From: Saccoglossus kowalevskii
Lineage: Eukaryota; Hemichordata; Enteropneusta; Harrimaniidae
Assembly: GCF_000003605.2 (NCBI RefSeq)
Contig: NW_003141315.1
Span: 48,548 to 106,002, forward strand
Reading direction: 5' to 3'
Length of the DNA: 57,455 bases
Under the pieces are notes generated by a model that was not told the DNA's origin, searched no databases, and was given only the letters and a program-made list of their open reading frames with translations. Below, piece by piece: positions 1,581-54,850 of the stretch (positions within the stretch are counted from its first letter, which is position 1; each line of letters opens with the position of its first letter). The translations under genes and the position numbers were made by a program.

Positions 1581-1697
1581 AATGTTCCGACAGTGATTTC
1601 CAATGCATCATCTCCAAAGAGTGTGTACCCATGTACAAAACGTGTAATGAGATTTTCGAATGTGAGGATGGCAGCGACGAGAACACTGACTTATGTG
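1581..1697 (+). CDS. Exon: LDL-receptor class A domain 1 of the channel
   Basis: After a TTTTCAG acceptor the frame reads a six-cysteine LDLa repeat with the acidic Ca2+-binding end CEDGSDEN. The exon is 117 nt, phase 1 at both ends, followed by a GTGAGC donor. LDLa repeats are about 40 residues, so one exon carries one whole module. Confidence 0.88.
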
Positions 1698-4600
1698 GTG
1701 AGCATAATATAATCAAAATATTTGAACTATCAGTATTACCTTTCGGAAAGCATGCATACACTGGAGAATTTTTATTACGTCACTAAATTAGAGCGCAATG
1801 TTTTTGACTGCATGAAATGCAGTACGAGAACGATGCATGAGTCTCACGAATAACATGGAGTGATGGTGTATTTTTTTGAAATATATTAGCATATGTTGAT
1901 TCACATGTGGCATCAACCACATGTCATAATCAAATGATTGCTGCGTGAAAAACTTCACGGAACCCTGGTTAAATAATTTCGACGAAAGAGGGCAACGACT
2001 CTTCAACAACCCTAGCAAAGCAAATGAGCTTTGCAATGTGCAGCCCATAAACAGAAGAAATTGGGATATTGGTGAAAATGTCAAGATGACATGGATCTAT
2101 CATTTGAATTTAAGACGGTGGAAAGTGCATTTTTGTGTACCCGAACGATGTCAGTTTTTCTATCCCACTATACAGTACTGTAAGCAATGAACGGGAGGTA
2201 GCATGGGTTATTTTCATTAGTTTTTTTCTGGATTACAAAATAACACACTGTGTGTTTTTCACTGCAGCACTATATATCCATAGTACAGGGAACACCAAAG
2301 ATTTTCTAGAATGCGTTATAAGCACCATATAAAAAGGGGTAATATAACGAAAATAAATTTGTTGAAGTTTGTCCAAAATTAACTCAAGTGTGCTTCTTGT
2401 GATATGGCAACTGAAAACCGTAGCTATAAATTGTCATAAAGCATTATTATTAGACGAAACTTGATAACAATTGTTTGTTTGTTTGTTTGTTTCTTCCAGG
2501 AAGTTTTCATTTGAGTAATTTAGCTCTGAACAAACCAGCTTTGCAAAGTAGTACATTTGAACTGAGATCTGCTGATAAAGCCAATGATGGTACCTATGGC
2601 AACGATGACCATGGCGTGTGCGCCTGGACAGCAGAAGAAAGAAATCCGTGGTGGAGTATTGATCTTGAGAGAAATTATATTATATATCAGTTGTTTGTCG
2701 TACAAAGCACCAATCAACGTACGCAGTGACAATAGATAACTTTTCGCGATAATTGTTTTAATGAACGCATGAAAAACTGTTATTATAGTTGTAAAGATAT
2801 TATTTCTTCTATTTGACAAACCAACGCTCAGCGCCAGCGTAATTACAATCTTGGACGGAGTATAATTGTTATCATATATTTGTATTATTATCGTCATATC
2901 AGCTTAATACATTACTTAAATAATAATATTTTTATACACTGAGGAAGAACACTTTATACGGGTTCAACCGTATCAATTAGTGATGCTGACCATTTCTTAC
3001 TTGCCTTCTTATAATTTAGATGTAGTTCATTATTAATGGTTGTTTGGAGCTGGGACAGCAAAAGCAAAATTCATTCTTGGTTATTTTAGCACCATCTCTT
3101 AAAGAGAGAGCGCATGGCAATAGTTATATTTTGGTCGATAATTAATATGTTTGTTCCGGTAATAAGTGTTCTCATGTTTAACATTACGTCAGTGCAAAAG
3201 TAGATAAAGATAAAACATCTGATTTTGCCCCCAAAATTATTGGCTTACTGGCTTGTGGACAGCTAATGGTCTAGGTACTATTAACTTGTCCTAGAGGACG
3301 ATAGTCGTCTCGCAGAACATGTTAACATTTCGTTGCATACGTCTCCATGAAGACCATATGAAACAAGACGCGCCGAGACGCGAAGACCACCCCCTAAAAA
3401 ACAATTTGTGAAAAGTGAACGCATCCGCGAAATGCTGAAGAATATAGAATAAGTTAGAGCGGGAGTTTAAGAAAGTTAAAAAAATCATTTCCATTCTTTA
3501 TTACTTTATTGCGTTCCAGAATTTTCAATGTACAACGTTGAAGTGAGGATTGGACCGGGTGCCAATAACTCCAAGAACAGCTTATGCGCGAAACTTGACG
3601 GTTATTCGAAGACCGCCGATATAAACATTACCATAGATTGTGAAAAGCCATTGGTTGGGCGGTATGTTAGCATACAAAGTGACACCGGTGATAATATTAT
3701 GCAGCTAGCATTGTGCGAGGTGGAAGTCAACGGAATAGGTAAGATGTAATTGTAATTGTAATAATATCAAAACCTGCTGACACATAGGGTATGTACAAAT
3801 ATACTTTGCATACTATGCTTTGGTATCGTGCAGGAATTGGATTTTTCAATACTATTTCCGTTCACTGTGAGATCCCGCGTTATGCGTGAAATCAAAGATG
3901 ACAAATAAAGGTCATAGCGTCTTTCGTAGTGTTATAACATCTCGTGAGATTTGACAAACGCGAATTTATTTTTGGTGTATTTTCTCCATTAATATTGCAC
4001 GCGATATACATTTTATAACGTCAATGATGATGAAGTACAGTTGACTCAGCGTCATATCCTCTACTAAAAAATCGGCATTTCGACAGTTACCTATGAAAAA
4101 CAAAGAAAAGCAAGTTGAAAGCCAAATCATTCAATTTTTGCAGCAGACGTTCGGTCTGCATCTTTCACGCATTACGCGATACCTCGTAGTGAATGAGAAA
4201 TAAACCTGTCGCCACAATAATTCCTATCCATATACAACTATTGTACGCAAATAGTATTCAAACAACAGTTTCCTTTCTTCTGTGTTAGTTAATATAACTC
4301 ACAACACGTTGGTGTAGGCAATGTATCACGTAAATCCAGTACTAGTTGTGATTCTTACTGAAGGTGATTGGCTCCAAGAGCTCTCGGTAGGCAAACCAGC
4401 AACACAGAGTAGTACCCATAGATATGATGACGCATATAGAGCCGTTGATGGTTATGCTAACTCCCACTATATCTGGGGGCGTAGTTGTTCCCGCACACAA
4501 CGTCAATTTGAACCCTGGTGGAAATTAAACTTACGGAAAAAAAATGAAGTTCACCGAATTGTGATAACACAAAGAACCGACTGCTGTTGTAAGTATCCTT

Positions 4601-7600
4601 TTTGAAATTATACTTCAGTGGTTCCTGTCAGCATGGGAATCATGTGACCCGACAAGCCAAAATGTAATATTCGCTGGCGCGTTTTCGCATGAGGTTTACC
4701 ACGCATAATGAGGCATACTACCAAACCAAGACACGTTATTATCTATTTGATCCATTACATAGAAATATACTTACTTACTACCGGTATAAATCTTGTAGAC
4801 AATTTCGCCTTTGAAAATTTCGTCTTCGCGTCACATTTCTACATAGTACTATATTTAAAAAACTATGGTTAATACTGCAAATGGTTACTAAAGATGTTAA
4901 AGGCGTATATCAGGTATCGAATAGTATGATAACAAATTCAGTACTTCAAATTGAAAATCAGAATCAGCTAAACTAGTAGGACGTTCTCAAATTAAGTAAT
5001 TTCAAGTTTCGTTATCAACAAAGCAAATAATACTGATTCCCTAGTACAATATTTTAGTTACTATTCCAGTTTTTTGTTAAAAGAAAAAACAAAATTGAGT
5101 GTTGAATAGTGAATTGACACAAAAAATCAATACATCGGTGAAATTCCTGTTATGTATTTGCTATGATCAACTAAAAGGTATGACAATACAATAACGTTAA
5201 TGGTTAAATATAGTATATTCAATTTATGATGAATACTATAATATTATTTGCAGTGAAAATTTTAGAAGACGCCGAAATACGAGTAGGAATAAAGCAAATA
5301 CTGAATGCTAATATGCTTTGTGGTACCATAACTCAAGAACAGGTTTTAACAAACCACTCTATCACGATTGTGTGCGATCCGCCAGTTGTAGGACAATTTG
5401 TAAGTGTATCCTTGGCTGGAAAAACAGACGAACTTACCTTGTGTGAAGTGCAAGTATTTGGATTAGGTAACATTGCTTCCTTGTTTGTTCGTTTCGCATT
5501 GCATTTTGTTGCATTGCATTTATTGCGACTTAATTAATCGTGTTAATACGTATTTCTCTGTCGCCATTTCACAGCGGTCATCGACCACCTTCGAAACGTC
5601 GCATTGCATAAACCAGCATATCAGAGTACGGCTTATTATGGCCTTGGACCGAACCGTGCTGTCGATGGCAATTCCAATTCTAATATGTATGCAGGGAATA
5701 GCTGTTTTCATACCATGAACGAACACAACGCGTGGTGGAAAACGGATTTACAAGGAACCTACAGAGTTTATAAAATAATGATTGCGAACAGAATGGATGA
5801 TCACTGTAAGTCTTCATCACCAGCCAGATTTTCTTTCTAATCTAGCACCTCAAAAAAGCACGTTCATGTACAAACCATAGTCATTGTCATCTACCCTTTG
5901 GGTGCGTTGATGCAAGAGCATGTATCAAAGCTGCATAACTTGGACTGAAGGCGTGTTATTTTCATTCAAAAACGAACACTATACCAGACGACGGTCAGCA
6001 AGATAACTTTAACTGGCTATTCAGCAGTCCGGAAACCATTCTAGCTCACAGAAAACTGTTACTCTCCAAAGAATACAATGTTTATCTAATTATGCAGCGC
6101 GCACGCCCCCACTCCTTTTTTGTATCCGTTCAGTGATGTCACTGCATATCATGAATAATAATTAGCTACAAATAAGACCAGTCTGTGGTGGTTTTGCGTT
6201 CATCTCATGTTTGCAAATTTACAACAGCTGGGCCAGTATAACACAAATCATGCATGCCACGTTACTCTTATTTTCACAGCGGATCGATTAGAGGGTGGCG
6301 TTCTAAGAGTTGGTTTTTATGAAGACCACACAAAGAACTTCCAATGTGGTGAGCCATTCAACAGTATTGAAGTGGTCGCAGAAAGTGTTACACGTGTGTG
6401 TGTTACTCCAGTCATTGGCCGATACGTGAGTCTCCAGCACGAAGATGTATCCTCAACTATGATTCTCCATGTGTGTGAGATTATGGTTTTTGCTGAAGGC
6501 AAGTCATTATTGCATTCATTCATCGACATATTTCCGACATCTGGGAGTTCTATACATCAATTATTTATATCTGTTTCAGAGATCCGTAAATCAAAGAATG
6601 GCATCGATCGAAGAACTCGTTTTCAGTTTCACAAGCAGTCGTCTGTGATTGTGGTAGGCGTATCAACAATGGACTACCTCAATCGTGTGTCTGTAGAGGA
6701 ATGTATGCAGAAATGTAGCAGTCGTCTTGGTCTCGTATGTGGCGGCATACAATACAATGAAGTCGATAATAGTTGTTTTCTGTTTGAACAGCAAAGCCTT
6801 GAATCTAATGAGAACTTAGAGTTCACCTTCAAAGCATTCTCTCATTTCTATACTCGACTGTCGATTGGTGGTAAGATGCTATTTTGTTTATAATTTCTCT
6901 CACTCAAATATAATTGCTACATATTTATTAACCTTGGAGAAGAAAGACTGTTAGACACTGACAATATTACATAATTTACCGAGCACTGAATTCATGTACT
7001 CATTTCCATGTGGATAATTACACATAAAGCGGGAGTCAACTGCTTGTCGTTGTTCTCAAACAAGAGTCTATCCACGAGGTTTTGCGTTTTTTGTTTTTTT
7101 TTGCATGGACCATTATCGTCGCTTAGGACTCGATTCCCGAGCATGCGCATGCGATGACCCGCCCGCTTTAAGTTGATCTTCTCTTTATACAGTTATCACA
7201 ACATATGATGACATATGTCCTGACAATTATTTTTCCTGCAAAACGGGTGAATGTGTACATGAATACAAAGTGTGTGATACCAATATACACTGTCCAAATG
7301 GGGAAGACGAAATCAACTGCACAAACACAAACATAGCAGGTAAATAACGCATACAGTATGTTAAATGTCACTCTACTTCGCATACGTTGTGTTTATACAA
7401 TACAAATACGCCACCGTTTGAAATGTTTCTTTATGTTATTCGTTAGATGAAGACGAATTTCCCATTGGATGGTTTACACCTTATTTAGATTTGACCGATG
7501 AATTCCGAGTTTTCGACCACTTTGCAATCCATGGATATAAGAACCATGGGTTTCAAAGGGTGAAGGGTGATAACCCACCTGATTGGTCCAGATTTAAAAC

Positions 7601-10600
7601 ATTCAGTAGAAGTCACGATTACAGCAACGTGAAAGATTCCCTAGCAATATCTCCAGAAGATCTCATTAAGTACGGACATCGCGGAGACGACTTCATTATG
7701 CAGTGCAGTTATGGAGGCATTCAATGTAGCGCAAGGTTCAATGTATTCATTTATTTGTTTGTTTACACCAGTTATTTCGAGGACAATCCGCTAATCATTA
7801 CGACAATAATAATGTGAGTGCTTAAGTGAACTGAGAACCGGAATAGCATGCGTAATCGACAGTATATATCGTCCCCATCTGATGGGAACGTAATTCATCC
7901 CAATCAAATACCATGTTTTGGTGGTTACGGTAGAATGACAATTTTATCAGAGTTAACTCAATGTTATGTTATTTGCAGGGATTTTAGCGTATTTCATGAT
8001 AAGCATTATGGTAACTGTTTCCGATTTAACCATGATATTGAAAAACCACGTTACACCAGAAAAACGGGACCTGACTATGGTAAATAGACTTTATGAACTT
8101 TGACTGCAATATCGTGTTAGAGTTTATGATTTTAGTCACTCAAATTACGTTGCATACGCCGTGACATCATTTGTTTAACTTCAGGGCTCCAACTAACTTT
8201 ATACACTGAGCAAGACGAGTATATCGGACTTTATGGTAAAGAATCCGGTGTACGTGTTGTCATTGCGCCGCAAGACAAAGCACCCTTCCCAGTGAGCCAA
8301 GGACTAACGGTGAAACCAGGAAGTGCTACGTCAATCGCAATCACTGAGGTAAACTAAATACATCTTGCTTCTTATCATAATATGATAGGTCACCAATCAT
8401 GTGGGAATATTTTGCGTACGGTTGCATATAGATGACGCAACATTGTAATTACGCCTTGATTTTCAGGATCGAACACAAAGATTACCACAGCCTTATGGCA
8501 ACTGTATTTATGGTGATGGTAAAGATCACTTTTACAAAGGAAACTTTTCTTACTCTGACTTGGTGAGTGAGACTTCAATATATATTGCGCCAATAATTTG
8601 ATCTGTTAGTTATTATTATGGTCTGCATCGACATTTCTGGGATTATTTTTTACATATTAATAGGTTTATGATATTTAAAAGAGTCATTTTCATAATGTTC
8701 AAAATTTGTTCATAACTGTATGATAAAATATTGGAAAATTTGAATGAAATTTATAAATCAATCAATTTACATCTACAAACAGTCGTGTGAAAAAGAGTGT
8801 TTGGCTAAAACTATGAAGAAGTATTGTAATTGTACAGACAGTTCATTCGAAAAATCACTTCAATGTAAACTACTGAACAAAGAGCAAGGTTAGTGACATC
8901 TTTCTGGATTATGTAGTGTATTACAAAAACAAACAAAAATGTATTGTGCTGCAGGAAACTTACAAAGAGTATAATATCAATGATGAGCAGTTTCGTATAT
9001 CATGTCTCCAGTGAAATTGGCCCTTAGTAGTCTAATGTTTTTCTCTAATAAGATATAGAAGTCTGTTGGTTTACTATAACAGGATTGATTTACTATAATG
9101 CGATCACTTAATAGGTTCATTTACTATAATGTATATTGATGTACCATAATGTAAACGAGTAGAATATCGGTTTACTCTACTTCGATCTGAAGGCCCATTA
9201 GACTATATTCCAATTTCCTTGTATATTGATTCATCACAATGTCATATTGTTTTTTTATTTTTCAGATCGTTGTCGGCAGTTGATGCTTTTCATGTTCAAC
9301 TGGAACGTATTAGCATGCAAATGTCCACAGTCTTGCTAGTAAGATTTTTTTTGCAGTATCGATTTTGATTTATTAACTTAAAATAAGAGCATGTATTTAT
9401 AAGTAATACATGTTAAAATCTATATTTCAGTGAGGTAGATTATGGAATGAAGATTTCTCTTTCGAAGTGGCCTTCAGATGTGTATCTGGTAAGAATTATA
9501 CAATAAAACATACAAAGAATAACAAACAAACAAACACACATTTCCGTGTTATTCACATAATTGGTAAACTCCACGCTGTTATACATGTGTATAACTTGCC
9601 AATACCACACTGTTATTCACGTGTATAACTTGCAAATACCAAACTGTTATTCACGTGTATAACTTGTATAATTGGAAAACCGCAGATATTCACGTGCACA
9701 AATAACTAACACGCTGTTATTCACATGTAAAAATAAATAAAACGCTGTTATTCACGTGCATATCTTGCAAATATGACACTGATATTGACGTGTATAACTT
9801 ATAAATACCAAACTGTTATTTACGTGCATAGCTGCTGTTGTTCACATGTATAATTAGAAAACTTTTGTTATTCAGATGCACAAATGACGAACTTACTTAG
9901 CTATCTAGGAAATTTATTATATAAAATTAGAAAATTATATACTTATATACTTTTTTCAGAACAATCTGTTAAAAACCCTTCATGTCAAGAACAGTAAGAC
10001 AAGAAATATCAACGACAACATTGCTGCAAGGTATTTTATATCTATTTTGCATTTGATTACAATCATACTTAAAGTTGACTAATACAGCTTCGTGAGAGTC
10101 TTTTTGCTTATATATTTCTTATTAAAACCTTATTAATATTACTTTACGCGGATTGCGGGATTGATGCACTGGATACTAAGGGGGAATGTACAATGTTACT
10201 TGTTCTATTAGATCATTTTCTTTGCAATTTTTTTAATGTTTTTTTTGCGGGATCTACATTTTTTAAATATTAGGCAACCCAAATTATATAACATATCAAC
10301 TGTGCGTAATACATGGGAAATACCGATGCGCGCATCGAAATACTACTCTTTATATTTGTCACTCGTCCTTTATCTCGTTACCAGTTTCACGATTTTTGTG
10401 CTGATGCAGTTAAATTTGTAGGCGATAACACGTGGTATTGTGAGAAGTAGTATCTATATATTTTTTCTAGCGAGTATTTACATAACAAATGTCAATTCTT
10501 CGATTTGTATTCATGGTGTGCAGATAAGCGTAGTGGAACAATAAACCACTAACAATGAACTAAGAAGATGAAATGATATTACTCTAGATGATATTACTGA

Positions 10601-11002
10601 GACAATGGTCGCCATTCGTCGTCGCATCTTATGTTATGTTTTTTCCTTGCTTTCTTCAATGCATTAGTAACAATCTTGCAAGACTGGAGATATATTTCGA
10701 TAAATTATCGTACAGTATGACTTCCCAGTATAAAGCATATACGGTACGTGGTGATACATTCATTCATTCATTCATTCATTCATTCATTCATTCATTCATG
10801 TTATTGTCTTTTTGCGATTTCTTTTTGTTTTGTTTTGTTTCAGTGGGAAGACCTACTAAGTGACATCGGAGGTACATTGGGCCTGTATATAGGCACATCT
10901 CTTATTACAGTGATTGAAATAACAACCTTCATAATAGCTATATGTCAACATTTATGCAAGAAACGAAGTAATGAAGCTAACAACAAAGTTGCATCTGGTT
11001 GA
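1581..11002 (+). CDS. Mosaic DEG/ENaC (amiloride-sensitive type) channel subunit with LDLa, fucolectin and PAN modules; 5' partial
   Basis: Nineteen exons join in one frame: 1581-1697, 2500-2718, 3520-3738, 4364-4588, 5254-5466, 5575-5805, 6280-6498, 6580-6870, 7193-7339, 7447-7735, 7979-8079, 8185-8348, 8467-8562, 8783-8888, 9266-9338, 9431-9488, 9960-10030, 10668-10743, 10844-11002. They give about 1023 codons and a TGA stop. Order: LDLa, three fucolectin domains, PAN-like, LDLa, ASC extracellular core, TM2. ASC hallmarks include GLQLTLYTEQDEYIG, RLPQPYGNC, a Cys-rich CxCP stretch, SLSKWPSDVYL and a GTS filter in TM2. Family members are trimeric sodium or cation channels at the plasma membrane. 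What the added lectin and LDLa modules bind is unknown. Splice sites were assigned by eye; one donor is GC (6499) and one is weak (7736). The usual N-terminal TM1 was not securely found, so the start is missing or lies upstream. AATAAA occurs at 11057 and 11118. Confidence 0.9.
2500..3738 (+). CDS. Two exons: fucolectin (FTP, F5/8C-like) domain 1 of the channel
   Basis: Exons 2500-2718 and 3520-3738 (219 nt each, phase 1-1) encode one fucolectin-type domain. Visible features are the opening NLALNKPALQSST, the core WWSIDLERNY, and the closing GRYVSIQ...LCEVEVNG. The fucose-contact segment, usually R-x-DCC-x-ER, is not conserved at the junction of the two exons, so sugar binding by this copy is doubtful. 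Its introns contain a palindromic MITE (3861-4193, just downstream) but no other gene. Confidence 0.88.
3861..4193. mobile_element. Palindromic MITE, family C copy 1
   Basis: About 333 bp with inverted ends: CGCGTTATGCGTGAAAT near the left and TTTCACGCATTACGCG near the right. A second copy with the same termini and the shared internal AAAAATCGGCATTTCGA is at 47361-47677. No ORF. It lies in the intron between fucolectin domains 1 and 2. Confidence 0.75.
4364..5466 (+). CDS. Two exons: fucolectin domain 2 of the channel
   Basis: Exons 4364-4588 (225 nt) and 5254-5466 (213 nt) are both phase 1-1. The first half reads SVGKPATQSSTHRYD...AVDGYANS...WWKLNL. The segment QRTDCC keeps the first arginine and the two cysteines of the fucose-binding loop, but the usual ER that follows is replaced. 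The second half ends with GQFVSVS and LCEVQVFG, the common fucolectin ending. The acceptor at 4362-4363 has a mediocre pyrimidine tract; an alternative AG lies about 40 nt upstream. Confidence 0.87.
5575..6498 (+). CDS. Two exons: fucolectin domain 3 of the channel
   Basis: Exons 5575-5805 (231 nt) and 6280-6498 (219 nt), phase 1-1. The first carries NVALHKPAYQST, AVDGNSNS, CFHT and WWKTDLQGTYRV. At the junction the frame reads NRMDDHC then DRLEGGVLRVG, so both loop arginines are kept and this is the copy most likely to still bind a sugar. The end is GRYVSLQ...CEIMVFAE. The following donor is GC (AAG/GCAAGT). Confidence 0.87.
6580..6870 (+). CDS. Exon: PAN/apple-like domain of the channel
   Basis: One 291-nt exon, phase 1-1, starts after a TATCTGTTTCAG acceptor. 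It has VEECMQKCSSR followed by CGGIQYNEVDNSCFLF, the Cys pattern and the 'x-Y-x-x-x-x-x-C-x-L' ending typical of PAN/apple modules, which mediate protein or carbohydrate contacts. The preceding 81-nt intron is open in the same frame, so an unspliced form would also be translatable. Confidence 0.72.
7024..7171. mobile_element. MITE family A copy 1 (TTAAAGCG ends)
   Basis: About 148 bp between TAAAGCGGGAG on the left and CCCGCTTTAA on the right, with internal CAAACAAGAGTCTATCCA and an ATTATCGTCGCTTAGG stretch shared with the copies near 15.7, 19.9, 25.3, 35.2, 45.3 and 57.2 kb. The TTAA at the ends would suit a TTAA-targeting (piggyBac-like) transposase; this is inference. Confidence 0.75.
7193..7339 (+). 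CDS. Exon: LDL-receptor class A domain 2 of the channel
   Basis: A 147-nt exon, phase 1-1, with six cysteines: CPDNYFSCKTGECV, VCDTNIHC and GEDEINC. The acidic end binds Ca2+ in the family. A MITE of the TTAAAGCG family ends about 20 bp upstream of the acceptor, leaving only the CTTCTCTTTATACAG tract. Confidence 0.87.
7447..9488 (+). CDS. Exons encoding the ASC (DEG/ENaC) extracellular core
   Basis: Seven exons with mixed phases (1-2, 2-1, 1-0, 0-0, 0-1, 1-2, 2-0), unlike the uniform 1-1 modules before them. In order: GDDFIMQCSYGGIQCS then YGNCFRFN (finger/palm), GLQLTLYTEQDEYIG with the PPG-like KPGSATSIAIT, RLPQPYGNCIYGDG, CEKECLAKTMKKYCNC, WNVLACKCPQSC and SLSKWPSDVYL. These are the ordered ASC core blocks shared by ENaC, ASIC and FaNaC channels. 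The block that normally follows TM1 (FPAVTxCN) is not seen here and must be upstream or lost. Confidence 0.92.
9541..9880 (+). repeat. Degenerate minisatellite
   Basis: Seven or eight imperfect units of roughly 40-50 bp, each with a core like CTGTTATTCACGTGTATAAC and a trailer like TTGCAAATACCA. It lies in the intron between the exons ending at 9488 and starting at 9960. Each core carries a CACGTG or CACATG hexamer. Confidence 0.8.
9960..11002 (+). CDS. Exons encoding the pre-TM2 region, pore helix TM2 and C-terminal tail
   Basis: Exons 9960-10030, 10668-10743 and 10844-11002. They encode NNLARLEIYFDKLSY, then WEDLLSDIGGTLGLYIGTS leading into TM2 (LITVIEITTFIIAI). GTS fits the G-x-S selectivity filter of the family. 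The cytoplasmic tail is short and basic (CKKRSNEANNK) and ends at TGA 11000-11002. An ATTC microsatellite lies in the last intron. Confidence 0.92.
10759..10798 (+). repeat. (ATTC)n microsatellite
   Basis: About ten uninterrupted ATTC units just inside the last intron of the channel gene. It makes a spurious reading frame rich in His-Ser-Phe-Ile. Confidence 0.95.
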
Positions 11003-28783: not shown

Positions 28784-30479
28784 ATGATAACCGTGGATGT
28801 GTTATTATTTTTTTTGGTTTATGTTACTACGGCTCACCTATCAATTCTATGGGTCAGCCCTCTACAAAAAAAATGGTGTTTCAACAATTTCAGGCATTAT
28901 TTATTCAAAAAACTTGGGCTTGATAGGTTTTGGCCATTATTGGACCGGTTATAAAATACTATCCTTTCTTCAATTTTACTATATTACTGAAATTGTGACA
29001 TGTGTGTTTTCTTATTTGACTTTGGTGAATACATCGTGGAATAAAAACGATTTATTGTGACAATGAAAACAATCCGAGATATTCGATAATTCGGCTCCTT
29101 GCGGAAATGTGGGAAGGGGTGGCAGAAAACGGTCTCACTTCATGCGAAAAAAAAACACTTCTATTTGCTGGTTGTTCTCTCGCAACTTCATTAAATGTGC
29201 ATATTTTCTCATTTGACTTTCGTGCAATGTATATATCGCTAGTTACTTCTTCAGAAAGTTATAGCCAATATAAAAATTAAAAACGTGTGTTTTCCTTGCC
29301 ACTACAATGTCGGTCGAAGTATGGACGCCGTTAAACAACATTCAACCTACGTATAAGAGTGCTAAACAAGGCACGGAATGAAACGTGTGCTGCAATTAAT
29401 ACGCTTATTATCAACACGCATTGGTATATCAATAGAACGACATTCGTTAATAGTCATGTGCCTTACCTTACTAGTGATGTCATAGACGACGAGGCCAGCC
29501 TGTACGTTACGATAATACATTGGCGCTATACAATGGTATTTCTCAGCTCCAGCAGTGTCCCAAATTTGGAATTTCACTAGTCTGTCCCCAACATGTATTC
29601 TGTTGACTGTGAATTCCGCTGCGAATGAAAACGAGAACTATCTTGCTATGTGTCGATGCAAAGTGTGTGTAGAGTGAAAAAACGCGAACTGTACGGTGAC
29701 GCAGTTTGCGTTACATTTGCACTACTGTGGAGTGCCAGTGTTTTAAATTACCGTGTGCGTGCCGGGTGTGGGTGAGCGTTAATTCACGACAGGGTGACAT
29801 TGTCAATATTAGGTTCATTCTGCGAAACACGGCAGCAGCCGCGGCGACAAAAGCAAACCTTAAAATTAATACGCAACCCGTTATCGGGACATTATTGCAT
29901 TCGTTATTATGCTGTTATTATGCCGTTTATGCTGTTATTATTAATCTTTGGCCTTTGTCAAATTCGCCAACTGGCAATCGACAAGTACAATGCGATGCAG
30001 AATAAACAGTTACCGATTTACTAAATCTAGCACGCCCATTCAATGTCACGAGATCGGATTTTCCGCAATGAAACACAAATACAACTGCGCCATTCCCGCC
30101 TTCACCTTTGTGTATGAATCATATTGTTCATATTCGCATCATTTACGCTGAATGTGGTTGACCGATGGTTGGAGTTTTGACCTAAGTTCAATACTATAGT
30201 ATCGTAAAAAAAAATCGGTAGGTAGGATGAGCTATTGATCAAAACAATATCGGTTGTCCAGACCCGGGTCAGCAGTATTCCCACTAACTGTATACGCAGT
30301 TCTACGGTAACTATGATGAACGACTATGTTCGTTTTTTTAAATATGGTATTTACTCACCCCCTATGGTTGGTGGTTGGTCGTGGTACTCGCGGCACGTAA
30401 ATCGCACAGATAAGCATGTTTTACCAACCGACGACTCACCCACCACCACCATTTTGAACATTTCCATTCTCTCGTTCAT
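21609..30479 (-). CDS. Rab5-like small GTPase, copy 2 (199 aa)
   Basis: Five minus-strand exons: 30479-30359, 29618-29467, 23401-23273, 22622-22529, 21712-21609. All splice sites are GT-AG and the total is 199 codons plus stop. G1 is GESSVGKT, switch I ends PTIG, G3 is [11 protein letters not shown]4 is NKAD, G5 is ETSAK. The MYYR block after switch II and the tail KKLPKSEP are Rab5-like. The end RCC would accept two geranylgeranyl groups for membrane attachment. Rab5 relatives control early endosome fusion and uptake. The catalytic glutamine of WDTAGQE is Ala here, which in Rab5-type enzymes should slow GTP hydrolysis. The start is ATG 30479; ATG 30467 is an alternative four codons in. A MITE lies 18 bp past the exon-4 donor. 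Confidence 0.93.
22203..22511 (-). mobile_element. MITE family B copy 1
   Basis: About 309 bp, ends TTAAAGGGCGGTGGTCG and CGACGATTTCCACCCTATAA. The interior matches copy 2 at 55789-56099 in the opposite orientation, for example TTGATTTTCCCACAAT and CACAATACAATGCGC. It lies inside intron 4 of the Rab gene and contains GCGCATGCGTGGCGC near its right end. Confidence 0.82.
24314..24670. mobile_element. Long palindromic MITE (family D)
   Basis: The two halves are near-perfect inverted copies: GAGACTGTTATAGCAT with GCTATAACAGTCTC, CGCCCTCATGCGG with CCACATGAGGGCG, and AATTGCCCGGTGACGT with ACGTCACCGGGCAATT. The loop is about 70 bp. It lies in intron 2 of the Rab gene and makes a spurious frame at 24259-24444. 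Confidence 0.85.
25295..25408 (+). mobile_element. MITE family A, left part only
   Basis: Begins TTTAAAGCGCGCGAG and runs through CACCTGCGCATGCGTC and TGTTTACAAACAAGTGTC, then loses similarity near 25408, so the right end is missing. Confidence 0.7.
25578..25830. repeat. Poly-C run and (GAGT)n/(GGGT)n microsatellite
   Basis: C14 at about 25581 and a GAGT/GGGT tract at 25767-25828. The opposite strand reads as a spurious His-Ser-Pro-Thr frame. Confidence 0.92.
25830..29466. other. Large intron 2 of the Rab5-like gene; no exon seen
   Basis: The 6-kb intron between exons 2 and 3 spans 23402-29466. Besides MITEs and a (AAAT)n tract at 28735-28784 it has two imperfect copies of a ~40-bp string (26383 and 26589, AATGTKCAARTCGCG). 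Short frames lack domain signal. Confidence 0.5.
28735..28784 (+). repeat. (AAAT)n microsatellite
   Basis: About twelve TAAA units inside the large Rab-gene intron. Confidence 0.95.
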
Positions 30480-38663: not shown

Positions 38664-38746
38664 ACATGTAGAATGACCAGAGATACGGGAGTACGCAGGG
38701 TGATGATTTTAATCTAAGCACGCGTTGATTTGAGCGAAGTACTGCA

Positions 38747-41700
38747 ATGGAGCTAACAGTCAACATTTTGGATAGTTACCGGGGCCGTGATAAAGTCATG
38801 CGTACAGCATGTTTCGGTGCCATGTTGGCCGCGGGTTTGGTTGAAAGGCGAAACAAGGGTATGTCGACCAGGCTGCAAGTCGTCGTCGGCAGGCTTGCAG
38901 CGGCACGGACTGTTCTCCGGTTGTTCGATGATATACCGATGTTAGCATGGACATTGCACTATGGACTCGGCAAACAGGTATGTACGTTTGCCGGCGTATG
39001 TGCTACAGTACGCCTGTTGACCCCCCCCCCCTCCCACGCAATATACCGGGGCAGCACCATCTGTACACATGTCTCTTGTTCCGGGTGCTCTGGGTAGGGT
39101 TGGGTAACGCCTACTTCCGCCATTATGGAACCTTGAGTAAACAGGCATGATTGTAGCTTGAGCTCGCTTGATTTGAATTGTGTTTTGTACAGAACTAGGT
39201 AGCAATGGCTGTTAGGGATGGGATTTGTTCAGTAGAATTGATTATCCTATTCAAATATTTATTATAAAGCTATAACGGGGAATTTTTCCAAATCAGGAGA
39301 ATTCACCAGATCATAGAAACAAATATACACATCCCAGTCAAAAGACAATCACTCGATTAGACAATTATGATGAAAATCTAAAGATGCACAATTGATGAAG
39401 TGATTTTTTTTTTATTTTCAAAGAGGAAAAAATGAGTAAAAGTCTTCTGTTTGGAAGATATTCTGCCAATATTTTAAACTAATTAGTTCACAGTTTGAGT
39501 TTCTTTTTACACTCAACCCCTAACCCTAACTCTAACCCTACCCCTACCCCCACCCCAACGCTCCTTAATTTAATGGTATATGTCCATTCTACGGATGAAG
39601 GGACATGTACAATTGAATCAATTGGGGGTGAAAATAGATCGTTAGTAATATAATTGTAAATTACTATTTGCTACATTGGATACTGCATTTTAGTGAGAAC
39701 TGTAGAATAATTAATTTTCATTGGTATCAAATTTCACTATATTGACTCGATAATAAGCGCATCTTCTGTATTCACTGACTTTCCAGTGAAAGAATGAATT
39801 TTATCATAATTGTATGTGGGATTTCAGTTATCAGCACAAATAGATAAATTACAGACTGCTAAACATTGTAGCCATTGTTTACTTATCTTTCAGTACACTC
39901 AAGCCAGTAACCCGGAAACAACTCTAACTATACCTGGCCAATTAACTATGCAAATCATGTTTAGGTAGTTCTTCTCTGATGAGTATCCTCAGCTAATTAG
40001 GGTGCACCTTGGTATTGAACGAGTTCTGATTCTAGAAAATGGATTTGGTCAGTTTTACACTGGTGACCGGAAATGTATCCAACCAAAATCTCACCCTACA
40101 CCCTCGTCAGCACTAAGCATTATCGCGTAACTAACAGCATCCTTGCAATACTGATTAAAAATGACTTTTCTGGTTCCAAATGAATAAAGGTAAAATGCTT
40201 GGATGTTCGTGGCAATGTATATGTAAATGGAACCTAGACATCTGAAAAAATGTTGGTCAAAAGTTTTCCAGCTATTTGCATGTTATGTTTAGTGCACTCC
40301 CGAAGGAGAATACGAACAACAATGCATGACGGGATTTTTTATAGTGAAGACAATAAATAACTATAAATTTCGTCATATTTTGATTAATATAACTCGCGAA
40401 CGCCGCACCTTTCAGATTTGATTTTTGGCCAACTGTGTTCAACTGTGTTCAAAAGTGTTCCCAACAATACAACTTTAATAAGTTAACTTTAAAGTTATCA
40501 TCGAATATAATATTTGTAGGAAAAGGATGCCACCATAAGATGGTTGAATGTTGCCAAGAATATATGTGACCAATGCTTCTTTCCTGTTGAACACATTGCT
40601 TGGGCAGGAGAAGCAAAGATCATTGATGTCAAGTCACCAACCCCGTGGTCAGTAGCCAGTGTTATGATATGGGCAAGTTCATTGGTGCTTGGTTGTATTA
40701 TGTAAGTAAATTGGCCAATGAGATATATTGATATCTTGCTTTCGACAATACATATTGGTCTTTGGCTGTATAATGTATGTGTATTCCCCAATCAGATATA
40801 TTGTTATATTTGATATTCGATACACAGGTTTTGGATTCTTCACATTGGCTCTTCACTAGCTTCAATAAATAAATTGTCCATTAATTTGTGTATGTCGAAC
40901 TAGTTACTTTTTAAGCTTTTCAACATTTTATTTGTGGAAGTTATTATTATATTACATGTATATATTAGTGTGGACTTTTTGTAAAGCCTTCATATAGGCT
41001 AGCACTGTACATTTTGTTTTATATACAATCAAAATATATAGTTTTTTAAATTCTTTGTTGACAAAGCGACATACTAGTAATTTACCATTGGTTTGAATGA
41101 TTGTTTTCATTGACAGATCAATTAAAAAGATGCACACTCTCAAAATGAAAAAGAAAACTTTACTCGATGAACTCAGCGCTAGTAAACTAAGGTGAGTGCT
41201 TGAAAGAAAATGCTCAGGGGGGAAGTTCAGTATTTAGCAGCAACATTCAATTGACAAATTATTATTTTTATAGCCTACTTTATTGCCACTGTGTTTTAAA
41301 GATGCAAAACGGCAAAGGCATGTTTTTTATATTGTTGTTTGATACTGCGTGTTAAAGATCAAATTATATTATGTTCATCGAAAATCGAAAATGCTGTGTA
41401 CTATTTGTTTGATGAAATAATATATATATATTATTAATTTTTGATCAAACAAATACTCAATGCTCTCATCAATGTAAAATATCAAACATCAACTGATAAA
41501 AGGTTTACATGTTTTCATTCATATTACAATATATTGTCTTGGGTATTTGGTTAAAATTAAATTATCATGTTTTTGTTTATTTGTCGGGCAGGAATGACAA
41601 TTCAGAAGTATTAAAAGAAATTCAAGAATCAGTAAAGAAAGTACTGCTTGAAGAAAAGTTCAATAAACTTGATTTACTTGGCAGCGTGACCAACCTTCTA

Positions 41701-41850
41701 TGTGCGGTGAATTGGTTTCCACCTGGTATACTTTGGGCTGGTAAATTCAGTATGTCTATGGTTGGTTTCTTGGCTAGTGTGTCGTCTGTTGTGGGGCTGC
41801 ACAGGGTATACGTACAGACCAAGGAAAAGCTGCGATTAAAATATGCATAG
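38747..41850 (+). CDS. PEX11G: Peroxisomal membrane protein PEX11-gamma (248 aa)
   Basis: Four exons: 38747-38977, 40520-40701, 41117-41191, 41592-41850, giving 248 codons, close to the usual ~240 of the family. The N-terminus LDSYRGRDKVMRT, the block RTVLRLFDDIPML and HYGLGKQ are PEX11-gamma signatures. PVEHIAWAGEAKIID follows in exon 2, and WFPPGILWAGKFS in exon 4 near a hydrophobic C-terminal helix. PEX11 proteins sit in the peroxisome membrane and help it elongate and divide; the gamma form lacks the strong amphipathic tubulating role of alpha/beta in known species. Start ATG 38747 follows GCA in a fair context and begins the conserved N-terminus. Introns are phase 0, 2, 2. It is divergent from, and unrelated to, the Rab genes on either side. 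Confidence 0.95.
39515..39558 (+). repeat. Interstitial telomere-like tract (CCCTAA variants)
   Basis: CCCCTAACCCTAACTCTAAC followed by CCTACCCC variants in intron 1 of PEX11G. Perfect units are few and the tract drifts into C-rich sequence. It fits the TTAGGG telomere type found in many deuterostomes. Confidence 0.65.
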
Positions 41851-44090: not shown

Positions 44091-44095
44091 AATAT

Positions 44096-44463
44096 TATAT
44101 AGCACTAACACACGACCAATTAGTTTTTGTGCATACTAATTAGCTAATTTACATGACAGATACATATGTCAGAATGTTCTTTATGCATATTGTCATCAAA
44201 TGTTTCAAATGAACCTGAACTAAATGTATAGCTATTTAATCTCAATCTGTATAGTAAACAATACAGTTAATATTTCACATTATATAGCACCAACACACGA
44301 CCAATAAGTTTTTGTGCATACTAATTAGCTAATTTACATGACATACATATGTCAGAGTGTTCTTTATGCATATTGTCATCAAATGTTTCAAATGAACCTG
44401 AACTAAATGTATAGCTTTTTAATCTCAATCTGTATAGTAAACAATAAAGTCAATATGTCATTG
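44096..44463 (+). repeat. Tandem duplication, two units of 185 bp
   Basis: Units at 44096-44280 and 44281-44463 both read TATATAGCAC, CACACGACCAAT and CATATGTCAGA in order, differing at a few positions and by one 2-bp indel, so the copy is recent. Confidence 0.92.
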
Positions 44464-48418: not shown

Positions 48419-51400
48419 TCACGTTTTACAGCAACGACGTTTATGTGTTGACTGGTCGGCAGGTAACTTGCTACCAATTTTAAGTGTATCAGGATCTCCT
48501 TTTTCATTCTCTAGAAGTTTCATGTTTTCTTCGTGAAGTTTTATTGCTGGAATATGAAAGTAAAGTTTAGTATAACTAGTATCTGTTTATTTTATATCCA
48601 AGGAAAGGGTTGTCCCCGTAGAGCTCACTTTATTCGAACATATTTGTTTTGAGTGTGCTGCCAAATGAGTTTATATTTTCATGAATTTATAGAAAATCTC
48701 TAACATTGGGCCCAGGACTATATTGAAAAGTAGTCCAACTCTTGACGTCACATCACCGTCCGGTGTACAGCAAACTCTCATAACGTGACTGTGTTATTTC
48801 TACTTTTACCGATGGTGGCAGTAAACTGGGAGTATGACGCCACCTAGTGTCTGTACTGTGGCATTTGCTTATATTGCTAGCGGTGAGCCCGCACAAAATA
48901 TAGCATGCCTCAAAAACAAACGAACACAAGATTTTGACTGAAACTCGATTTCTCGTCAAATTGTTCTTGACCATCTGAGCATGACCATCTGTAGACGTTG
49001 ATTAAACAAAATCGACGAAGATTTGAAAGTTAGAGCCATAGTTTGTGGGATTCTCATGGTTAAAATCGGGCATTTCTACAGTTGGTGAATACACTTACCT
49101 AATGTAGAAAAGAGGTCATCGACATTCAAAGCGGTTTTTGCAGAGGTTTCTATAAAAGTGATACTGTTGTCATTGGCGTATGCTTGGGCATCCTGTAAAA
49201 CAAAGACGATATTTAACACATGCAATAACACTAATGCGAAAAATAAAGATAAGTGGAATGCATACACCGTCAATCAAATTTCAGGAACGATTTTTACTTT
49301 TGATATTGTGTGCCAATTTATTTTCAGTGTTAAATCTCAGTCCCTCGCGTTAGGAGGGACAGTGCCTAAATCGTGACTGGGGGATGAGTTGCGCCCTCAC
49401 CTACAGCGGCCGCCCGGAGACGCAACACACACAATTTCTCTGGATCAGCAGAAAGGCCTACGATATATAATTGTGTGTAATTGTGTTGTAGCAAACATCT
49501 CGTTATCAGCCAAATGGCAGTTGGACAGATCTAAATGTGCAAATAGTACATAGCTGTACACAGTTGTCGGTGAAATCGATGACGTCATGGAACTACGCGT
49601 CCACTGATGGAAATTTACACAATAAAACACTTTCCCGAAAGTAGCAAAACTTGGGTGCAAAAATATTTCTGCTTTGTCATGGCAGAAAATATAAACATGT
49701 TACTTTGCTGATAGTCGGTAGAAAGGAATTTTATTTTTGTAATGTTGGTTAGTACACCCAGAAGCACAATATCACGCATGCAAGTTTGAGTTACACACCA
49801 AAACGCGCGCATGCGAAACGCCGTATCTGCGACTTCCGGGAAGGTCGTCTATGTTAGTCACCCTGTGGTGGGGCACTACGCTACCACACTTACTTCACAG
49901 GACACTTTTCTCGTGTCTTCCAGATCGGCTTTATTACCAGCCAAAATTATTGCAATATTGGGAGTGGCTTGTCTGTGTAGTTCCCTCACCCATGAGTTGA
50001 CTCGCAAAAATGTAGTCTAAAAAGTAAATCAGAAATATCATATAAAAATAAAATTCCAGTACTCCAGGGTGTTAAACAATTCATATATACCTCGACTATA
50101 ATTCGTAAATATGCTATAGAAAAAAATAAAATTGTCTACGTTGTCTATATTGATTGACTATCGTCAAAATCTGGAAAAATAATAAAATAATATTCTTTTT
50201 TTTAAGTCAAGCACAGGATTCATCTTTAGTGATTATAGCAAGTTACGATATTCGTTGATAATGTGAGACACTTTCGTTTTATTTCACTCTAGTACTATTC
50301 TACAAAATGTTCTCAATGTGTTTTCCCAGCGACAAGTTACCTAATTAGCAACGAGGTTCGTAATTACGTGAGTTGTGTATGTATATATGTAGGTTGTGTT
50401 TCTAAGTTTCATTGACCATTAACAAGAAATGCTGCAATAAAACAGGCAAAATAAAGTTGTCGATTGAACGACGGCTAATACAGAAGCCTAACGTTGAAAC
50501 TCTGGGTAGAACATCTCCCTCTAGTGCAAATGCCCACTGCTACATAACTATCTTGTCTATAACGCCCTCTAGTGGGGGAAGCGTTTACGTGAAAGAATGA
50601 AGGCTGTTGACCTCGATATTCGTTTTATTTTCACTTTTTCATCAAATAACAATATTTTTGAGAAATTCACCACATTAAAAATTACGAATATTATAGTTGT
50701 CGCTTAGAACGAAATGTCCTTCGCCATTACGCGATTTTGACATCAGAGAAGCGATTCTCGTAGAAAATATTTTAATTCAAGAAAATTCTATCTAGTCCAA
50801 ATATGGTAAAGTATACCGATATATCGGCACAGAACGTAACATGGACAGTGCGACGTCATTCCTACCTGCTGTGTGATGTCATAAACGACGATGGCGGCAT
50901 GCGCCCCTCTGTAGTACATTGACGCTAAACTGTGATACTTTTCAGTTCCCGCAGTGTCCCATATTTGTAATTCTATAAGTGCATTTTCTACATGAAGTGT
51001 TTTGGACGTGAACGCAGCTAGGGTTGGAATAATATGAAATATTATAAATTATTGGACGTAACTCAGTGAAGTTTAAGACACACAGACTGCAATGAATTGA
51101 AATCAATCGGTGAAAATGAATTAACAATATTAAAAAAAAATAATAATCGTCAACAATAATCATGATTTTTTTTTAGAAAATTCGTCATAAATCGCAAGAC
51201 AATGTTCATTGGTTTATTATATCAAATAATGTATCCATGAAATAACATTCTTTTGTGTGTTACTGTGACGTATTTGTTTTTTTTAAAAATCCATAACACA
51301 ATGTTAAAGACAAAAAGTTTTTTTTTTTTTTTTTTTTTTTGACCCCGGTTTTTTTAATATATGATTTTTTATCCTACGACACCAGCTTACAATTTGAGAT

Positions 51401-52004
51401 ATGGCATAACATCTCTGACAAATGAATCTATGATAACAACGCTTATGATATATATAAAATGACCGCTATCCACTAAAAAAACAACCAGCATTTTCGAGAA
51501 AATTACCTGGTGACCCCCAACTTTGGAAGATCAATATCTTTATATTGCCCAGGAGTACAATTTATTGCAGAATGAATTATAAATTTGTATTTGCATTTAC
51601 CAGTAGGCTTCTGTTACGTGGGACAAATGTATTTTGATGACACATTTTATTTATAGGATCTTTTTCTTTGATAACATTGATTTGATTTTTTAACTATTTC
51701 TAAAACTGGACATATGATCACCAGGACTGTTTTTTTTATAAATGATATTTTCTTTGTGGTGACCCCAAATCAGTGGCGGTGGCACATGGGCACAAGTAGT
51801 TTCGCATTAACTTTAAGCTGTTGATTTCAACAGGAACGGGGGCTCACCTCCAATGGTTGTCTGCATATCTTTATCGAATTCTCCTCTGACATACTGCATA
51901 GCCAGACTTGACTTGCCGACACCTGCTTCACCCACCAGTACTAGCTTATACTGGAACCGTTGAGGTCGCTTGTCATAGCGCTGCGTGGAACCATTCCTTG
52001 ACAT
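48419..52004 (-). CDS. Rab5-like small GTPase, copy 1 (217 aa)
   Basis: Five minus-strand exons: 52004-51848, 51017-50866, 50016-49894, 49192-49099, 48546-48419, all GT-AG, 217 codons. G1 is GEAGVGKS, switch I region QTTIGAAF, G3 [11 protein letters not shown], then [14 protein letters not shown] as in Rab5, G4 NKAD, G5 ETSAK. The C-terminus KRRCCKT gives a CCxx prenylation site like that of Rab5. Rab5 relatives act on early endosomes. The glutamine of WDTAGQE is Thr, so GTP hydrolysis is probably weak. ATG 52004 is chosen because the sequence upstream looks intronic; an in-frame extension exists but has a pyrimidine-rich stretch ending in CAG. The four introns match the other Rab gene in position and phase (1, 0, 0, 1), so the pair arose by duplication. 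Confidence 0.94.
51315..51340. repeat. Poly-T run
   Basis: About 25 T in the first intron of Rab5-like copy 1; no feature besides length. Confidence 0.9.
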
Positions 52005-54850
52005 TTGTTTGTTTTTCTTGTTTGTAGTGAGTACTTGAAAAAAAAGAACATGACACCATACTATATAATTAGACATGTGAGTCATTGAAACACCGATCAA
52101 TAATGGTCAATAAATTTTATCTGAATTTTAACTTCTGATAAGGAAATAAGGTACATCCAAATCTGGTATCATATAAAATATCAGGATGTGTAACTAAATA
52201 GCGACATTTGCTGAAAATGCCATGTTTTGTTTGTTTTTTCGATTTCTCTGCGTAAAATGTGAAATTTGAGTGTTTGTATTCTTGTATACAAACGTTTGAT
52301 TCCCTTATCTTGTATTTACTGTAATATACAAAATATATTCACCCCCAGGTGACTAAGGCATTTCACTCCAATATGGTAGTGGCAATGCCAGTGACGTGTC
52401 AGTACTCTTAGGTCGTCGCGCTCATGGTCATATTACCCGTCCACCATTATGATCGCCCATTATTGAAAAACAAAAACTGCAAACAATTCCATTGTAGATA
52501 TACCGAATCCCATGACAACCCGTGTTTATAACTGAATGATTCACGGCATGCACGTCGCAAAATTTTGTACCGATACCGCCCTAAACTGAACAGCGGTAAT
52601 AATGTCCATTCAGGCCACCCATATCGCCCCGGTGACCCCACGGAGCTTTTCTGTGACTAGATACCAGCCCCCGCTCATAGGGACTGCGTACAGTTGATCA
52701 TAGTTCCTGGGCTCCCAGTGACCCAACCCAACACCAATAATATAAAAACAATGCCAATATGAACCCGTTATGCAAATTGCTATGAAAGGGTCAACGCGGT
52801 TTCCACCGTGGTCGATTCAAGGCCGAGTTTTGTTGTTGGTGCTCACAGGCCGGTAGTTTTCAAACCCTTCGGATATGACGTCATTTCTGGGCAATATGGG
52901 AGTCCCGAACATGTAGTAACAGCAACGCGGTCCGGACGTTGCGAAGACTGCGATGTTTTAGACACAACAGGTCCGGGCAACAGGTTAACGTCAGTGACTA
53001 CCGTACGATGTAATAATTCGGGCTTATGTGACAATTTGAAGGTTTAGCAGGCGTAAAGATTCATATATATCCAATGATGACGGGTGTACTCACCACTGAA
53101 ACCGCTACGGTGGTCGTCAGGCTATTATGGCCTGCTCAATACATCGTCACATGTATGGGCAGAGTCACAAACAATTAGTCAACCAGGAAGTCAACGAGGG
53201 ATGTGCAAATAAAAACAGGGGAGGGAACGTTCACATATTTAGTCGTGAATAAAACAAAAATAAAACAATACTAATAATAACAAAACAGTTTATTGAAATT
53301 GATAGAACTCGGGTGCTGTTGTGTTTTCTGAGTTCAGCTCCTTTTTAGTCACATCCAGGTGACAGAGCTTGGGCGACAACCTCCTGGCGCGCACCCCCGA
53401 TTTCCCATTGTTATGTATCTGACATCACCTGTCATATTTTTTACTGCTATTGCGCCGTCCCTGACTGTCGCCGAAACTAGTTAACAGCATTCACTTCACG
53501 AAGTGAATATATAATCACGGGTATAATGGTTATTTTTCGGAAACCTGATTCAGTTAGTTCTCAGAATCAGATATCGATCTGTGGTTGTATCAACAACGGT
53601 GTTTGCACTATCGTCGACAAGCCGACTGCTCATGACCTCAAGGTGATTCACAGGAAATCACGTGACACCCCGGACCCACAAACCGTATACTAGTACTGTA
53701 AATGCATTAATTATTCACTGGGTTTTAATTTTGCTATTTTTGATAATAAGTAGAAATCGCCAAGTTCATTGTTTTTTAAATTAAAACCCAGTGAATTAGC
53801 TAAAAATATCAAAATTGTGGAATTAAATGCCAGTAAAAATTAATGGTCCAACCGTGGAGGTAACAGTAATACCTTTTACAGGCTACTCAAAAGAAAAAGT
53901 GGCGTGATTTTCTTTGCTTTACTTCTCAGGCTGACAACAACGACGAAAGTTAGTTACATGATACAACTGGTGTCCATGACATACATGACGCTACTAATGA
54001 CGCCATGTACCAGCTATCTTGGTCATATGGTCTGCCTCTTCTTGGATGTGGCACGTTTCTTTCCATCTTGAGTTTAGCCTGCTTATCTGCTCCACACATG
54101 AACTTCCTCTGCATTGTCATTTTCTTCAAACCCAAAATATCAAGCGTACGATGCAAGCAAGCAATACATACCTATTGTACATATCATGGAAATTAGTGTT
54201 AATTTGTGTGTACTATATATCTTTATGAAAATAAAAAAAAATATTAAATTAAATTAAATTAAAAGGTTCATACATTCGATTAGAACTGATTTTTTTAATT
54301 TTGCAAAGTGCACCTTTTAAAAGCTGTGTTGAAAGCTCACATGCCAAAACTACTTTGACACGGTGATGAATAGTGCTTTACTTTAAACGCGCATGAGGCC
54401 GTGACTTGTATCCCTAACTCCTTCACCATAATCAATAGCAAAATGAAATAACATTCGTGTTAAACTTTAACACATGCGTCTTAAGCCTGTAGGTCCCATG
54501 TTAAATTAAACTTGTTGGAGTAGGAAATTTGTCTACAAAAATGTATGAATATTGTACTTACCTCTATTAATTAATAGTATGTAGTACACTTGTTACACAT
54601 TTCGAATTCTACTACGCTATGACGTCAGAACTGCGAATCTGTAAGTACGTTTTCCCTCCTAAATATTTATTCACTTTGTAACCCGCATATAGTTTATAGC
54701 GCTAGTCTGTTGGCATGCTTTACTTACTTGATGGACATTCTCATGTTTGATCTGGTGAGTAAGTATTTTCCACCCTACGACATGAATATAGATCGCATAC
54801 CCCTCGATGACAATGTAAAAACATGAAAAAAAGAACTATTTTACACATAT
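52005..54850. other. Upstream flank of Rab5-like copy 1; repeats only
   Basis: No confident gene. A family-F terminus lies at 52640-52720. A minus-strand frame 54156-53950 (68 codons) could be a terminal exon but has no clear acceptor or domain. Confidence 0.4.
52640..52722 (+). mobile_element. Family F repeat, right-end fragment
   Basis: AGATACCAGCCCCCGCTC then GGGACTGCGTACAGTTGATC and TAGTTCCTGGGCTCCCAGTG match the right arm of 55248-55642. Confidence 0.65.

Follow-up and report, generated by a model that had tools for sequence, protein, structure and literature searches.

A putative mosaic DEG/ENaC channel of Saccoglossus kowalevskii with lectin and receptor modules predicted inside its channel domain

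Channels of the DEG/ENaC family are usually described as compact proteins in which a finger domain tunes gating, and the defining marks of the family are an N-terminal HG motif, a first transmembrane segment (TM1) and the palm motif FPxVTxCN. In the passages of Noreng et al. (PMC6197857) drawn on here, the GRIP domain of ENaC is a protease-sensitive element of the finger that is flanked by alpha1 and alpha2 and wedged between finger and thumb. Here we describe a gene of the hemichordate Saccoglossus kowalevskii in which a chain of F-type lectin, LDLa and PAN modules appears to occupy about the same place. The window, meaning the whole stretch of DNA that was analysed, comprises 57,455 nucleotides (positions 48548–106002 of contig NW_003141315.1, C3226 in our numbering); the upstream part of the same contig was examined in addition, and the genome searches covered 572 Mb in 4,830 contigs.

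In the portions of the F-type lectin review PMC5712786 consulted, the fucose motif of these lectins is given as HX24RXDX4(R/K), eel agglutinin is reported to form homotrimers and hexamers, the trimer having three-fold cyclic symmetry, MsaFBP32 is a trimer, and the partner domains named are C-type lectin, pentraxin, CCP, transmembrane and FA58C domains; the word "channel" is absent from the review. Exon-shuffled metazoan modules are described in passages of PMC8001218, a paper from which the same word is likewise absent, as having symmetric 1-1 phases and lengths of 3n. Kringle, LDL and lectin are not mentioned in the main text of five channel-family surveys (PMC9822975, PMC6827283, PMC10507113, PMC9949801, PMC10148893), two of which contain EGF matches that correspond to EGFP in the passages shown. 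Finally, a lancelet pangenome paper (PMC12373286) reports a fucolectin-APEC protein and leaves ENaC unmentioned. Channel, lectin and shuffling rule are all known individually, and a limited literature search, outside which lay UniProt, InterPro and the proteomes of other animals, returned no description of a DEG/ENaC channel with what we interpret as a module cassette in its finger; databases may already contain automatic predictions of such a layout.

Insertion of modules within the channel domain

Between the start of E1 at 1581 and the end of the TGA stop codon of E19 at 11002, the + strand of the window contains 19 exons that can be joined into one stop-free frame, in which a split first codon is followed by 1,023 complete residues. 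Their domain order is LDLa, three F-type lectin domains (FTP1–FTP3), PAN, LDLa, the DEG/ENaC core, the second transmembrane segment (TM2) and the stop. The original prediction had given these coordinates and domains for 1581–11002, and exon joins, Pfam and PDB matches bear it out. Its "consecutive exons in a single frame" hold after splicing only, the raw exons being spread over all three frames, and its placing of the modules ahead of the ASC core was wrong: they are inserted inside the ASC domain, with TM1 and the first palm strand (beta1) upstream of the window. The Pfam ASC profile matches the window exons only from position 123–124, and the beginning of the channel is therefore missing from the window; no TM1-like open reading frame was seen by eye on the + strand of window bases 1–1580. 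The missing part is found on the same strand of the same contig, approximately 3.2–3.8 kb upstream of the window, where U1 (C3226 44743–44973) contains a start codon, the HG motif (STSAHGISKI) and a hydrophobic TM1, and U2 (C3226 45159–45300) encodes palm beta1 with LDFPSVTVCN and ends in phase 1. The HG motif, TM1 and the palm FPxVTxCN of these exons align with ASIC1. They are followed, again on the same strand, by two LDLa exons of 3n bases and phase 1-1, U3 (C3226 46082–46201) and U4 (C3226 46382–46504), so that the two LDLa domains originally recognised in the window are preceded by at least two more. Together, U1–U4 match ASC positions 1–89. The 23 exons now known for the gene (19 in the window and four upstream) are all open, with usable splice sites, a start and a stop.

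Joining U2 straight to E10, and thereby skipping all modules, keeps the frame and yields a protein of 521 amino acids which matches the ASC profile over its full length (1–455 of 455) with 307.6 bits (cut-off 23.6), compared to 228.2 bits (E 2.7e-67) for the joined window exons. Since the module-skipped frame gives the full ASC domain, the cassette of class 1-1 modules is predicted to interrupt a complete channel gene at only one phase-1 position; on one side of it the match to ASC reaches position 89, and on the other it begins at approximately 123. The alignment of ASIC1 to the module-skipped protein covers residues 21–106 and resumes at 198–199. The unaligned stretch between them, which we take to belong to the finger domain in ASIC1, contains the join (residue 124). 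The cassette point would accordingly be in the finger, at about the place of the ENaC GRIP domain, a placing that stops short of individual helices.

The gene is thus predicted to encode one DEG/ENaC subunit, running from the start through the HG motif, TM1, beta1, the cassette and the rest of the channel to the pore motif and TM2. By domain matches, the cassette holds at least LDLa x3, FTP x3, PAN and LDLa, amounting to approximately 700 foreign residues so far (E1–E9 contribute 627 codons, and U3 and U4 together another 81). The run of nine stop-free phase-1 module exons between channel exons is not due to chance, and the flanking channel exons, the phase-1 modules and the repetition of the arrangement in a second locus (see below) strongly support the earlier claim of one gene that joins lectin and receptor modules to a DEG/ENaC channel. 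That the product is a mosaic channel, with modules lodged within the channel domain, we consider very probable.

Related mosaic channels in the genome

The channel-part exons have at least 100 paralogous matches in the genome. Seven of the corresponding intervals, one block of a 36-interval list and not a random sample, were examined, and all seven contained LDLa exons, preceded in six by TM1 or beta1 exons on the 5' side (the exception, C1573, is rich in N). The interval on C6, 24,201 bases without any N, repeats the order of the window gene: TM1, beta1, LDLa x3, FTP x3, PAN, LDLa and finger. For other paralogues, hand-picked and joined candidate exons gave different Pfam module counts, namely LDLa x4, kringle x4 and PAN x4 in C2729, LDLa x9 and kringle x2 in C4796a, and LDLa x12, PAN x4 and kringle x2 in C3229a; these counts leave out C4796b, C1573 and C3229b. 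Kringles within DEG/ENaC genes on C2729, C4796 and C3229, four of them in one gene, are a second unexpected module type. An LDLa pattern matched the sense strand of eight channel loci 48 times and the antisense strand not once, although compared with the Pfam counts it misses some true domains, finding one of four in C2729 and three of four in C6. The same pattern had no match on either strand of window positions 11003–57455 or contig bases 1–44000, nor in 20 mononucleotide shuffles.

Genome-wide, an LDLa-family match was assigned to a channel gene if its own strand carried, no more than 35 kb away, a TM1 exon on the 5' side of the match and/or a finger exon on its 3' side. Such a match precedes the finger exon in 18 channel genes, counting the window gene, and among 22 TM1–finger pairs an LDLa-family match was present in 12, and an LDLa-family or FTP match in 13. 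Outside the window gene, 21 of the 77 FTP matches listed are followed on their own strand, at a distance of up to 35 kb, by a finger exon, placing FTP exons in six further channel genes (C3786a, C3786b, C309, C3245, C2851 and C6), for two of which, C3245 and C2851, no TM1 exon was found. On these matches, the window channel is best described not as unique but as one member of a mosaic channel family encoded by this genome. Candidate compact channels also exist: at loci L001–L006, the ASC profile is matched from approximately 15–22 to 217–236 in one stretch, one of the six stretches having two in-frame stops, and the LDLa pattern had no match at any of the six.

Three loci found in the course of these searches deserve mention on their own. 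On the - strand of C309 (12965–21479), two FTP and two LDLa-family matches occur without a listed TM1 or finger exon nearby, perhaps representing another mosaic channel or a channel-less relative. Three FTP matches lie on the - strand of C3226 (197770–203912), opposite to the window gene and not near the channel exons found, and C4670 (36678–40586) has a single open frame of 1,735 amino acids with many LDLa-like matches.

Exons, module identities and fucose sites

All nine module exons of the window (E1–E9) have lengths of 3n and symmetric 1-1 phases, and the channel exons 3' of E10 have mixed phases. A search routine for phase 1-1 exons, devised for use on the paralogues, covered all nine, merging two into one candidate and lengthening another. 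E1 (1581–1697) encodes an LDLa domain, the third found in the gene. Each FTP domain is formed by two phase 1-1 exons: E2 (2500–2718) and E3 (3520–3738) for FTP1, E4 (4364–4588) and E5 (5254–5466) for FTP2, and E6 (5575–5805) and E7 (6280–6498) for FTP3. E8 (6580–6870) encodes the PAN/apple domain and E9 (7193–7339) the LDLa adjoining the channel part. The channel resumes in phase 1 with the finger-start exon E10 (7447–7735), which includes RVKGDNPPDWSRF and extends through CSYGGIQC, and the ASC core continues in E11 (7979–8079), E12 (8185–8348, with LTLYTEQDEYIGLYG), E13 (8467–8562), E14 (8783–8888, the cysteine-rich part), E15 (9266–9338), E16 (9431–9488, with YEVDYGMKISLSKWPS), E17 (9960–10030) and E18 (10668–10743), the last of these before TM2. 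E19 (10844–11002) supplies GLYIGTS, TM2, a short C-terminus and the stop. Of the 18 introns between these + strand exons, 17 are GT-AG, the exception being the GC-AG intron that follows E7. A 34-bp minisatellite at 9571–9830 lies within the intron that separates E16 from E17.

On the joined exons, Pfam identified F5_F8_type_C_2 in three stretches (E 6.5e-36; F5/8C-type, NedA-like) and Ldl_recept_a in two (E 3.4e-10), while PAN_1 was obtained with E8 scanned alone (E 1.8e-7) and was unlisted for the whole joined protein. Among solved structures, MsaFBP32 (3cqo) matched FTP1, FTP2 and FTP3 with E values of 1.9e-25, 5e-38 and 3.9e-28, respectively, and eel agglutinin (1k12) with 3.7e-11, 2.9e-15 and 5e-16. 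As these are the best solved relatives of all three discoidin-like domains, the three are classed as F-type lectins. For the channel part, the best PDB match was ASIC1, followed by ENaC subunits, ASIC5 and FaNaC, which is a ranking and not a placement in a tree. The pore motif GLYIGTS aligns to GLFIGAS of ASIC1 and TM2 has a hydropathy of 2.06, which together with the ASC match confirms the sodium-channel core with TM2 that had been proposed.

The four fucose positions (H, R, D, R) were read from alignment columns with eel agglutinin and MsaFBP32 and not by counting motif spacing. In the window gene they are occupied by W, S, N, S in FTP1, by R, R, D, I in FTP2 and by H, R, D, R in FTP3. The idea of sugar recognition put forward in the original prediction is thus sustained only partially. 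The motif His..RxDx4(R/K) is complete only in FTP3, where E6 holds the His and the first Arg/Asp and E7 the last Arg; it is partial in FTP2, which keeps the Arg and Asp and has Arg in place of His and Ile in place of the last Arg, and in FTP1 all four positions are lost. In C6, using exon joins chosen by hand, the positions read V, N, D, S in FTP1 and H, R, D, R in both FTP2 and FTP3. As judged from these residues, the sugar site is lost in the first lectin copy of both genes and kept in the last of both. All six domains retain the DG of the calcium motif. Fucose binding by FTP3 is a prediction from the motif.

Elsewhere in the window, a PEX11-like gene is represented by two + strand stretches at 38729–39094 and 41500–41847 (Pfam E values of 3.8e-13 for the first and 0.0017 for the second, the latter short of the curated cut-off), Ras-family GTPase stretches lie on the - strand at 51816–52106 and 50791–51048, with a second Ras-like stretch approximately 21 kb away at 29365–29637 on the same strand, and a 183-bp tandem duplication occupies 44094–44460. 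On the mitochondrial contig C4830 (L054), COX1 is on the opposite strand from open reading frames taken for ND1 and COX2; the tRNA-Lys anticodon is TTT, AAA was seen by eye at presumed conserved Lys positions, and no AGA or AGG codons occur in the COX1 stretch. These features argue against an echinoderm origin, since AAA encodes Asn in echinoderm mitochondria.

Possible roles of the cassette and relation to known systems

The explanation that we favour, and to which we give somewhat better than even chances as a whole, combines the mosaic channel with control of gating by ligands that act through the cassette. The second of these parts, in which fucosylated glycans load a crown of modules and the finger passes this on, is a tentative proposal that we would place a little below even. 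The subunit would assemble into the usual trimer, with the cassettes forming a crown upon the fingers, and the trimeric state of eel agglutinin and MsaFBP32 would fit a trimeric channel. FTP3, as the sole lectin copy with an intact fucose site, would provide three equivalent sites per trimer, which might bind fucosylated glycans of a microbe, mucus, the egg coat or the animal's own matrix. The LDLa, PAN and degenerate FTP domains would act as calcium-dependent spacers and protein contacts, and binding to the crown, or a pull on it, would be transmitted to the finger near the place of the ENaC GRIP domain and alter channel opening. The cassette could have originated when exons were shuffled into a phase-1 intron behind an ancestral LDLa pair, and duplication of the gene would then have spread it; the LDLa pair common to many paralogues would have come first and differing module additions later. 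A broader version, which we regard as unlikely, is a repertoire of ionotropic pattern-recognition receptors, in which a sodium-channel frame carries interchangeable class 1-1 finger cassettes (LDLa arrays, F-type lectins, kringles and PANs) that translate microbial, gamete or matrix ligands into sodium entry.

Several observations weigh against this explanation. Its support is DNA sequence, and the opening of the channel by a ligand on the finger is something we infer. The fucose sites are degenerate in two of the three lectin copies of the window gene, and FTP3 is without the adjacent Cys pair of eel agglutinin (DDHSDR instead of DCCGER). A run of N separates the upstream exons from the first window exon, and the join across it is therefore inferred and further modules could be hidden there, although the C6 interval, which has no N at that place, supports the join of upstream exons to modules. 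The correspondence with the GRIP place comes from profile and alignment only, the join falling in the part that does not align with ASIC1. At E ≤ 3.7e-7, 40 of the 45 genome matches to the LDLa-family query (LDLa1/LDLa2) lie in channel genes, two of them from the window gene itself, but this query was modelled on channel genes and their top ranking is partly built in. The other 56 of the 77 listed FTP matches lie away from channel exons; FTP domains are thus common in the genome, and finding them in a channel does not by itself imply gating by sugars. By coordinates only, nine of the 22 TM1–finger pairs have neither an LDLa-family nor an FTP match, and may be compact or contain modules too diverged for the queries. 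Lastly, a small tree of finger exons (13 rows, only two starred branches; C4507a, C309, C3229a and C3229b left out) does not unite the FTP genes, requiring three changes, and leaves undecided whether FTP domains were gained once in the channel family.

Three alternatives share the architecture with ligand-controlled gating and are not mutually exclusive. The cassette could be a mechanical anchor, in which the FTP, PAN and LDLa domains tie the channel to a glycoprotein matrix or to an adjacent cell and the channel opens when the finger is put under force, as in a degenerin-like tether. The degenerins include touch channels, the outer part of this channel bears a long chain of adhesive modules, and degenerate FTP copies fit a structural role more than sugar sensing; FTP3 and two of the C6 copies, however, have an intact fucose motif, which suggests a selected sugar contact, and the force response is conjecture. 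Of the three alternatives this is the most credible, while still on balance unlikely. The cassette might alternatively only place or cluster the channel and leave gating untouched, with compact forms perhaps generated by skipping of the symmetric exons. Frame and full ASC domain are indeed kept when all module exons are skipped, but finger and thumb take part in the gating of ENaC and ASIC according to passages of PMC6197857, and we find this option rather improbable. Lower still stands an inhibitory plug relieved by proteases, as suggested by a position at about the same finger place as the ENaC GRIP domain. Kringle, PAN and LDLa modules also occur in protease cascades, yet the cassette is built from other, named domain families, and a GRIP-like role appears doubtful.

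Two further readings concern the gene itself, and both are very improbable. Modules and channel could be two neighbouring genes read as one, given that the window by itself is without TM1 and that novel domain combinations in lancelet and helminth gene models have been blamed on prediction errors (according to the abstracts of PMC4967905 and PMC12964723); this was rejected, as channel exons stand on both sides of nine module exons that are all 3n and phase 1-1, skipping the modules restores the full ASC domain, and paralogues repeat the arrangement, in C6 with identical order and no N. A decaying or non-functional copy, for which one GC donor and the purely genomic evidence could be cited, is disfavoured by 23 open exons with usable splice sites, a start and a stop, a complete ASC profile and a conserved pore motif.

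If whole recognition modules are swapped at the finger among paralogues, the family would represent a natural experiment on gating by the extracellular domains of DEG/ENaC channels and a candidate for a direct link between lectin recognition and ion flow. It would also be a clear example of an ion channel that acquired modules by exon shuffling.

Compared with the systems described so far, the predicted channel shares with ASIC1, ENaC and FaNaC the HG motif, TM1, the FPxVTxCN of beta1, the cysteine-rich core, the GxS pore motif and TM2, and differs from them in holding approximately 700 foreign module residues inside the channel domain. Similarly to ENaC, it has extra sequence at about the finger place of the GRIP domain, but whereas GRIP is a beta-strand tract with protease sites (as described in parts of PMC6197857), the extra sequence here consists of independent class 1-1 modules in series. 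All three lectin copies resemble MsaFBP32 and eel agglutinin in domain sequence, FTP3 also in its full fucose motif and DG calcium motif, whereas unlike those lectins they would form part of a channel. The symmetric 3n, phase 1-1 modules are those of exon-shuffled mosaic proteins, with the difference that the acceptor here appears to be a two-transmembrane ion channel and the modules are lodged within its own domain.

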